The position numbers and the translations under genes are program-made. The notes beneath the pieces are model-generated. The model was not told where the DNA came from. It worked only from the letters and a program-made list of their open reading frames with translations, and made no database searches. Below, piece after piece: positions 62,107 to 64,000 of a stretch of DNA of 64,000 nucleotides (its first letter is position 1; each line of letters starts with the position of its first letter). Source of the DNA: Clostridioides difficile ATCC 9689 = DSM 1296 (GTDB lineage Bacteria > Bacillota > Clostridia > Peptostreptococcales > Peptostreptococcaceae); NCBI RefSeq assembly GCF_001077535.1, contig NZ_CP011968.1, positions 3,348,001 through 3,412,000 of the forward strand, given 5' to 3'.

Positions 62107-62118
62107 AGTTATTTATGT

Positions 62119-62173
62119 AAAAATGGTAGGAGCTGTAGCACTATTTTCTAGCACGACAGCTCCTACCATTTTT
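62119..62173. terminator. Strong bidirectional terminator between treA and the RiPP genes
   Basis: AAAAATGGTAGGAGCTGT (62119-62136) pairs perfectly with ACAGCTCCTACCATTTTT (62156-62173), 18 bp, with A- and T-runs on both sides, so it works for treA (+) and for the peptide operon (-). Confidence 0.88.
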
Positions 62174-62309
62174 AATTAACATATATAAAACAAGGTATTT
62201 TAAAGTTGCTTTTATAGATATAATAAACAATTGTAATTAGATTCTATTAATTTTAATAAAGTTAATTATGTTAATTGATAAAGCTAAAACTAATTATATT
62301 TAACTCTTT

Positions 62310-62528
62310 TTATTTTTTTTGTCCAGGTATTTCTCCTGGTGATCTAAATTGTTGACCATTATTTATTTTAGAACCTTTCACTTGATTTGTGTGATAGAAT
62401 GACCATGTTCCCCCAGAACAACTACAAGAGCATAGATTTGCACACAGAGCACCACAATTACATCCTCCTTTAGGATCTATTTCTCCATTTGCAGAATCAT
62501 ATAAATTTCTTTTTCCAAAATTAGACAT
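62310..62528 (-). CDS. Cys-rich RiPP precursor peptide (CLI_3235-type bacteriocin precursor)
   Basis: A 72-aa peptide. Leader about residues 1-22 (MSNFGKRNLYDSANGEIDPK), then six cysteines in 15 residues, CNCGALCANLCSCSC (Cys23, 25, 29, 33, 35, 37), then GGTWSF and a polar tail of about 30 residues. AGGGG lies 9 nt before the ATG. The layout and the two genes upstream match the clostridial CLI_3235-type cassette, whose Cys are probably cross-linked by a radical SAM enzyme to form sactipeptide/ranthipeptide bonds. The product and its activity are unknown. Confidence 0.7.
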   Translation of the reverse strand: MSNFGKRNLYDSANGEIDPKGGCNCGALCANLCSCSCSGGTWSFYHTNQVKGSKINNGQQFRSPGEIPGQKK

Positions 62529-62569
62529 ATCATTTTTCCCCTCTCATTTGTTATATTATTATATTTTAA

Positions 62570-62860
62570 TTAATTAAAATTAATAGAATTCTCAAGTTTT
62601 TTAACAATATCATAAATATTGTTAAAAGAATTAAATCTTCCTGATAAAATTACATCCTCTGGAATAGATATAGAAAAATAGTCTTCTATATCATACAATG
62701 TTAATACTAGTTCACGAGCAGGCATCATTATCTTAGATTCAAATAAATTTTCATTTTTTAAATAACAATTTTCATCAAAATTTATTTTTGATCTTTTCTC
62801 AAATATATTTACTAAAACTGTATAGATATCTAGTTTATTCATAACTTCTGTGTTTACCAT
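62570..62860 (-). CDS. Acyl-carrier-related protein of the peptide maturation system
   Basis: A 96-aa helical protein. ARELVLTLYDIEDYFSISIPEDV follows helices II-III of acyl carrier proteins (LxLVxxxxxxEExFxIxIP). The site where ACP has the pantetheinylated Ser in a DSL motif reads MMPAREL, so there is no Ser for a prosthetic group. Short ACP-related proteins of this kind belong to the CLI_3235 cassette. It lies 41 nt upstream of the precursor and 33 nt downstream of the next gene. Confidence 0.62.
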   Translation of the reverse strand: MVNTEVMNKLDIYTVLVNIFEKRSKINFDENCYLKNENLFESKIMMPARELVLTLYDIEDYFSISIPEDVILSGRFNSFNNIYDIVKKLENSINFN

Positions 62861-62893
62861 ATCAGTATTTCACCATCCTTTATGTAAAATATT

Positions 62894-63970
62894 TTATATA
62901 GATGCTACAGTACCATATTTTATAAATTCTTTGATCATTAATTCTATTAATCTGTCTATTTCAGATTTGTTAGATAAACAAAATACATTTTTATTCTGTA
63001 ATGTGGCTATTTTTTTCTCGACTAATGATTTTCCTAATGTTAAATAAAATGGTTTTCCCATAGTCTCTGTTGGGTGAGATAATATTGATTTCGCAGCAAT
63101 ATTGTAATAATCTACCTCTATATTAAACTTACTTTTTGTAATTTTACCAAAATAAGAAATTTCTTCATCACTATATTTACCATATGGAATAGATAGTATT
63201 GTACAGTCTGGAGTTACTGCTTGAAGTACTTTGTACATTGTAATTCCAAAATCACCAAATGCTTTCGAAGAAAATGGAAGTATACCACCTGGAATTCCGA
63301 TAATTATAAGGTCAGGTTTTTTTTCTAATTCTAATTTTTTTAGAGTATTATTAAGCATTAGTACCTTGTCTTGTTCTTCTATATTATTTGAGTACATAAA
63401 CTCAGGGAATGAGTAGAAATCAAATAATTCGCAAACTTGACGTGTTCCAATTTGAAGAACCTTATATCCATCAATTAGTAACTTATTTCTTAATGCTAAT
63501 TGAATATCAAATTTTTCTAAGCCTTCAAATATGCTACATACAAAAATAACAGGTGTATCAATATTGTATATTCTTCCTTGAAAATCTTTTACCATATTTT
63601 TTGAACTATTAATTTCAAACTGTTGTTCTTTAGGTATAATCATTTTTAAATTATCAATATTACTATTTGAATTACTAAAAAAGATTATTTTTTTACCATG
63701 ATTTACAGCTTTTTTTATATTTTCTAAAATAATATTTTCGCTTTCATCACTATAAAAATTATTAAGTAAGATATATGTACATTTTTCTAATTCCTTATCA
63801 AAATTTTCAGAAACTTCTAAAGACTTACCATTAAATTTATATTTATCTCCTAAGATTCCATTCCCCTTTAAACTTACAATTGATGTTATATCTATATCTT
63901 TTAGTAAATTCTCTTGTTTAACAAATGGAGCCATTTCCTCTGTGAATGGATAAATTAATACTTTTTTCAT
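62894..63970 (-). CDS. Peptide maturation system protein, TIGR04066-like
   Basis: A 358-aa soluble protein. The N-terminal part (about 1-115) is an alpha/beta fold (MKKVLIYPFTEEMAPFV); the central part starts TPVIFVCSIFEGLEKFDIQLAL and has a P-loop-like or dehydrogenase-like region, then IIIGIPGGILPFS and KPFYLTLGKS. I recognise it from its place between an ACP-like protein and a Cys-rich precursor; biochemical role unknown. GGAGG lies 6 nt before the ATG. The operon probably continues past the window with the radical SAM maturase. Confidence 0.6.
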   Translation of the reverse strand: MKKVLIYPFTEEMAPFVKQENLLKDIDITSIVSLKGNGILGDKYKFNGKSLEVSENFDKELEKCTYILLNNFYSDESENIILENIKKAVNHGKKIIFFSNSNSNIDNLKMIIPKEQQFEINSSKNMVKDFQGRIYNIDTPVIFVCSIFEGLEKFDIQLALRNKLLIDGYKVLQIGTRQVCELFDFYSFPEFMYSNNIEEQDKVLMLNNTLKKLELEKKPDLIIIGIPGGILPFSSKAFGDFGITMYKVLQAVTPDCTILSIPYGKYSDEEISYFGKITKSKFNIEVDYYNIAAKSILSHPTETMGKPFYLTLGKSLVEKKIATLQNKNVFCLSNKSEIDRLIELMIKEFIKYGTVASI

Positions 63971-64000
63971 TTTAATCCTCCAATAGATTCTAATTAGTTT

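Follow-up and report, generated by a model that had tools for sequence, protein, structure and literature searches.

Known cassettes and the locus in Clostridioides difficile

The CLI_3235 family, for which PMC7343975 cites Haft and Basu (2011), belongs to cassettes that encode the radical S-adenosylmethionine (SAM) maturase CcpM together with a TIGR04066 protein and an acyl carrier protein (ACP)-like protein. Such a cassette for a ribosomally synthesized and post-translationally modified peptide (RiPP) lies at the end of the Clostridioides difficile sequence analysed here (the window: 64,000 nucleotides, C1:3348001-3412000 of the 4.15-Mb genome) and continues into L005, the stretch of the same genome reaching beyond the window end. 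The original prediction of a CLI_3235-type RiPP cassette is supported by our results. The locus shares with the described CcpM/CLI_3235 cassettes the maturase, TIGR04066 and ACP-like families, all above cut-off, and the gene order maturase-TIGR04066-ACP. However, its precursor is unseen by TIGR04065 and is encoded after the ACP-like gene, its exporter is of a type of its own, and no S8 protease gene lies near the operon. The cassette type is thus a known one, but in this branch the peptide and the exporter are of a separate kind, and the two helper proteins resemble worn-down ordinary proteins.

Contrary to the earlier statement that such cassettes have almost no described product, SacP23 has been reported as the product of one of them. 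According to the available part of that report (PMC10731318), the eight-gene cluster of Paenibacillus polymyxa #23 gave antimicrobial activity when expressed in B. subtilis. Like the window cassette, the cluster encodes an ABC (ATP-binding cassette) transporter along with members of the TIGR04068, TIGR04066 and TIGR04069 families. It differs by the presence of a subtilase and by its precursor, which has 61 amino acids and is of the CLI_3235 type. A CLI_3235 precursor from P. polymyxa Kp10, also a predicted sactipeptide, has a predicted mass and isoelectric point equal to those of SacP23 in the accessible part of PMC7343975, and PMC11594732 merely cites SacP23. In the text available from PMC4573289, a Roseburia intestinalis cluster of the same families is presented with no precursor recognised, which fits with precursors of this kind being missable.

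Organization of the cassette

The cassette is an operon-like run on the minus strand, with genes for an ABC exporter (622 amino acids), a radical SAM maturase (475), a TIGR04066 protein (358), an ACP-like protein (96) and a precursor (72), separated in this order by 28, 62, 33 and 41 bases (Table 1). All five are open reading frames (ORFs). The last three genes are closely spaced and co-directional and stand where they had been placed by the original prediction. It had also expected radical SAM and export genes just past position 64,000, and this proved correct: the maturase gene (C1:3412033-3413460) occupies the stretch from 33 bases past the window edge (3412000), and the exporter gene adjoins it. 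The proposed family set was recovered for TIGR04068, TIGR04066 and TIGR04069, all above cut-off, but not for the precursor, which has no TIGR04065 match; the core with six Cys in 15 residues is present as described.

Table 1. Features of the cassette and of its insertion edges (window positions unless marked as genome)
Feature	Coordinates	Strand	Evidence
Precursor peptide (72 aa) made up of a variant leader (GKR motif), a six-Cys core and a 35-residue tail	62310..62528	-	ORF; L100 homologue at the same operon position; six-member alignment A5
Cys-rich core, residues 23-37, CNCGALCANLCSCSC	62418..62462	-	Sequence; alignment
ACP-like protein (TIGR04069), 96 aa, Ala48 at the carriers' phosphopantetheine Ser position	62570..62860	-	TIGR04069 99.7 bits (cut-off 70); carrier-protein profile match
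TIGR04066 protein, 358 aa, DUF1611/DgcN-like fold, eroded P-loop (residues 146-155)	62894..63970	-	TIGR04066 408.6 bits (cut-off 200)
Hairpin, then T; between amylase and precursor genes, at left insertion edge, contains repeat	62118..62174	.	Fold -30.7 kcal/mol
Left copy of 18-base direct repeat TGTAGCACTATTTTCTAG	62134..62151	+	Repeat search
Right copy of 18-base direct repeat TGTAGCACTATTTTCTAG	genome C1:3417630-3417647		Repeat search

Maturase and precursor

The maturase scored 572 bits with TIGR04068/CcpM (cut-off 500) and matched PF04055 above cut-off and PF13186 (SPASM) at 17.8 bits, under its cut-off of 21.5. The CxxxCxxC motif (C97, C101, C104) and C356, C374, C412, C415, C421, C424 and C441 are kept in 44/44 aligned maturases, which were selected at >30% identity to the window protein and a length of 400-560 amino acids. 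Its CxxxCxxC motif and SPASM cysteines are those looked for in the radical SAM/SPASM maturases of ranthipeptide and sactipeptide pathways. The nearest solved structure was 5wgg (E 1.2e-29, aligned over residues 6-244 plus a weaker C-terminal stretch), which we take to be CteB, a thioether-forming SCIFF maturase. The window enzyme is of the same class as other radical SAM/SPASM maturases, but it falls below the cut-offs of the models for the maturases of lachnocin (217.8 bits vs 550), PapB (NF047865; 193.7 vs 340, which leaves it outside that family), RumMC (189.6 vs 720) and SCIFF (CteB; 127.3 vs 425). To our knowledge, none of these four systems has a comparable helper pair.

Formation of Cys thioethers on the core can reasonably be inferred. 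Rings of the PapB kind join Cys to Asp or Glu, as stated in the available part of PMC9413430, and are not expected within the core, since it has no acidic residue.

The genome has a second radical SAM gene (L025:6204-7583, C1:3052203-3053582), with 144 bits to TIGR04068; presumably it encodes the SCIFF maturase common in clostridia.

The core is spaced C25-x3-C29-x3-C33-x-C35-x-C37 and is preceded by C23. When the window was resampled 30 times under a first-order Markov model, six Cys in 15 residues occurred in 0/3924 ORFs of at least 40 amino acids. Cys density alone is nevertheless weak evidence, because 2/172 real window ORFs, the precursor and one 52-residue ORF, also reach it. The ORF is taken as a gene based on its operon placement and its conservation. 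Directly after the ACP-like gene of a Lachnospiraceae cassette (L100), a 65-residue peptide is encoded that is 41% identical over 68 aligned positions (pair E 1e-13). Both peptides share NCGALCA..C.CSC with five of the six Cys, C23 being replaced by Val in L100. In six aligned precursors of the sub-branch described below, M1, K6, C25, C35, C37 and P68 are invariant.

Searches of NCBIfam (to E 10) and Pfam (to E 1) gave nothing for the window precursor; one PHROG match, of function-unknown type, was obtained at E 0.066. No match to TIGR04065 was found anywhere in the genome, and we do not count the precursor among the members of that family. TIGR04065 touches 1/6 sub-branch precursors (E 0.02) against 41/44 other precursors at E up to 1, the latter being no unbiased rate, as these 44 (alignment A7) were hand-picked from named loci for KK/KR-type leaders and rows not resembling precursors were dropped. 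A scan of viral contigs for the precursor gave no match. Toxin-subunit models touched the short precursor of one relative below cut-off, which was judged to be noise.

The six sub-branch precursors that are visible (the L021 contig ends too early) are all encoded downstream of the ACP-like gene. Among the 44 hand-picked others, 34 lie upstream of the maturase, one between the TIGR04066 and ACP-like genes and nine downstream. The downstream position is thus not unique to the sub-branch; L020 and L107, its neighbours in the tree, show it as well.

ACP-like and TIGR04066 helper proteins

A profile of 47 ACP-like sequences matched solved carrier proteins (best E 1.2e-7). In the four carrier alignments shown, the Ser of the carriers, which we take to be the phosphopantetheine attachment site, faces Ala of the ACP-like family. 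This column holds Ala in 21 of the 47 rows, Pro in 18, Ser in 4 and Thr, Asp, Gly and Glu in one each; a second set of 41 rows, one apparently spurious and with four genomes in common with the first, gave Pro 23, Ala 12, Thr 2, Gly 2, Ser 1 and Phe 1. The window protein lacks the Ser of a functional acyl carrier. Since the site is mostly Ala or Pro, most of these ACP-like proteins, including that of the window, are judged from their sequences unlikely to be ordinary carriers.

The TIGR04066 protein has the predicted two-domain fold of the DUF1611 family. However, it is only 9-14% identical to DUF1611/DgcN proteins and is placed in a RiPP operon, and the residues aligned with the P-loop of 2g0t (GTDCVVGKRTT) are without the motif. 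Searches of the open-access literature turned up nothing on the DgcN enzyme and two incidental mentions of DUF1611.

An enzymatic role of the helper pair is conceivable: as an N-acyltransferase like DgcN, the TIGR04066 protein would cap the peptide or its N-terminus, and the ACP-like protein would present or position a substrate without a phosphopantetheine arm. We consider this improbable: P-loop residues are not kept, the window TIGR04066 protein has no Walker A motif, and the Ser is lost in 43/47 ACP-like proteins. Moreover, a fold alone shows no function, and a blocked peptide end has other causes. A further idea, offered tentatively and in our view unlikely, is that both helpers, one a DUF1611/DgcN-like protein and the other an acyl carrier protein by origin, were drawn into the RiPP pathway and given a new use there. 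A carrier that does not carry would then be paired with a P-loop protein without a P-loop, as a maturation scaffold or for peptide capping by novel chemistry. We know of no described radical SAM RiPP pathway with such a step.

Two loci with divergent radical SAM genes encode, next to these, one protein each (L024:5585-7393, 602 amino acids; L087:6821-8647, 608 amino acids) that by eye looks like a fusion of an S8 subtilase with a TIGR04066-like portion (TIGR04066 E 5.7e-21 and 2.7e-24). Such a fusion, if true, would tie TIGR04066 to leader cleavage.

Exporter and protease

The ABC ATPase was the sole Pfam family above cut-off in the exporter, which carries Walker A and LSxGQ motifs. The C39 exporter anticipated by the original prediction was not found: Peptidase C39 is absent from the Pfam matches of the exporter, and the whole genome gave no C39 match. 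S8 proteases are encoded in the genome, none of them near the cassette. One of these (C1:3641697), some 224 kb from the cassette, can be aligned at E ≤1e-3 with 49/51 subtilases from the loci of relatives (best match 34% over 178 residues); that it acts in trans on the cassette product is a guess. The absence of S8 genes was dropped as a mark of the sub-branch as too weak: they occur in 0/5 full sub-branch rows, only two of which extend for 5 kb to either side, and in no more than 33/68 of the other cassettes that extend as far.

Divergent from the exporter gene, an 80-residue ORF (L005:5813-6055, +) is by eye largely hydrophobic and has no family match above cut-off. It is a possible candidate for an immunity protein.

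Distribution and the sub-branch

At E ≤1e-20, and with the window's own genome counted, TIGR04066 was found in 1/8 genomes of the genus, 4/71 of the family, 9/393 of the order, 16/391 of the class and 5/398 of the phylum. The TIGR04066 alignment was too diverse as a scan query. Named genomes were scanned with the maturase alignment, and the best 80 of 544 confirmed stretches were considered. The CcpM cassette is widespread: 59 of these best 80 loci hold a TIGR04066-like ORF (own profile, at least 40 bits; in seven, the only match is below 100 bits). They are mostly from Bacillota, and the strong ones include a spirochaete and a sulfate reducer.

Pooling both genome sets, 101 unique cassettes were selected by a maturase with adjacent TIGR04066. 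An ACP-like gene lies downstream in 73/93 of those having at least 3 kb there, and in L147 it lies upstream instead. The maturase tree (103 rows: these 101 plus the partial maturases L021 and L128, four duplicates dropped) was built by a quick method without bootstrap. Seven cassettes have an exporter at least 34% identical to that of the window: L005, L016, L018, L021, L023, L100 and L128. All seven, two of them partial rows, form one side of a branch (SH-aLRT 88), which sits in a ten-row group with L020, L107 and L114 (SH-aLRT 99). The nearest neighbour of the window cassette is L100 from Lachnospiraceae RUI588 (support 95).

No close relatives were found in genome contigs by the single-protein scan, and plasmids scanned for TIGR04066 gave no match. 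The TIGR04066 matches among phage records were three short gut entries without annotation (29-31% identity). A plasmid of Enterococcus raffinosus (L180, NZ_CP104394.1) carries a lone maturase relative (42.5% identity) followed by an IS6 transposase gene, with no further cassette annotated. L068, L073, L101 and L124 each hold two CcpM cassettes close together, and six genomes of the class-level scan have three to five TIGR04066 matches each, some partial or weak.

Insertion between the amylase and permease genes

The precursor gene is next to an amylase gene. The spacing from the latter to an amino-acid permease gene is 101 and 162 bases in the congeners G002 and G007 (between matched codons), as compared with 7610 bases including the cassette in the own genome. 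Homology to the empty site of G002 ends at window position 62131 and resumes at L005 position 7658 (inserted span C1:3410130-3417657). The two copies of an 18-base direct repeat are 7496 bases apart, with no others in the genome at ≤1 mismatch. The repeat occurs in 6/7 congeners, at eight places in total (≤1 mismatch). Six of these places were compared, and all share the element end; L209, L210 and L213 share further stretches at 83-95% identity. At the left edge, only about 30 bases of the shared element end are present, and beside the right repeat there are broken pieces of an IS1182 transposase (E 3.9e-12 and 0.0038, fragments far under cut-off). A simple terminator scan did not list the hairpin at the left edge. 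In L005, promoter and terminator scans remained at the level of shuffled sequences (75 vs 75.3 and 1 vs 1.0), and no promoter is claimed.

The simplest reading is that the cassette is an insertion whose arrival was helped by an insertion sequence; it is possible that it was lost from the congeners instead. The IS1182 pieces at the edge, together with the presence of the cassette in a single one of the eight genus genomes, could also point to a silent or decaying insertion. This is very unlikely in our opinion, since all five genes are open and the CxxxCxxC motif, the SPASM cysteines and the exporter Walker A and LSxGQ motifs are present.

Proposed pathway

Based on the above results, we consider it quite probable that the locus is an intact CcpM-kind RiPP cassette working as follows. 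The leader of the precursor would be bound by the N-terminal part of CcpM, which can be aligned with the corresponding region of CteB. CcpM, which has a single radical SAM cluster and seven Cys in its SPASM region, would form thioether bonds between some or all of the six core cysteines and other peptide residues. The two helpers, TIGR04066 and ACP-like, may assist as partners that no longer perform P-loop or carrier chemistry. The product would then be exported by the ABC protein and trimmed by a protease encoded elsewhere.

In its favour are the families above cut-off, the conserved maturase cysteines, the match to 5wgg, the frequent downstream ACP-like gene, the sub-branch, the ACP-like Ser site, the DUF1611 fold and, as a precedent, the activity obtained from the SacP23 cluster. 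Several points weigh against this proposal. The operon has no protease gene within it, the window core shows no CX3D spacing, and Ser is retained at the ACP-like site in 4/47 proteins. An ACP-like gene was not found downstream in 20/93 cassettes, which may be true absences or weak matches. The 34% line for exporters was set post hoc and separates L100 (34%) from L131 (32%), which falls outside the branch. It should also be noted that, in the available part of PMC10731318, the sactipeptide label of SacP23 is a prediction; the m/z of 3404 (predicted 4.46 kDa) and the blocked N-terminus are no proof of thioethers, and no bond assignment was seen there. The Kp10 precursor, apparently the same as that of SacP23, was not detected in active fractions, according to the accessible part of PMC7343975. 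No cross-link determined for any cassette product was found in the open-access papers reached by the searches.

A role as a secreted antimicrobial or as a signal is probable for the product. Some ranthipeptides have been credited with signalling functions, and it is possible, although on balance doubtful, that the peptide is no bacteriocin but a signal of the producer or a metal-binding peptide. The dense CxC and CxxxC spacing would bind metal too, and no immunity gene was recognised. However, the patchy distribution and the insertion suit a competition trait, and the sole expressed relative, SacP23, is reported as antimicrobial in the available part of PMC10731318.

For the family as a whole, the sub-branch demonstrates that TIGR04065-based tools overlook some precursors. 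The predicted fold of the TIGR04066 protein and the findings at the Ser site of the ACP-like proteins make two unexplained helper families into testable hypotheses.
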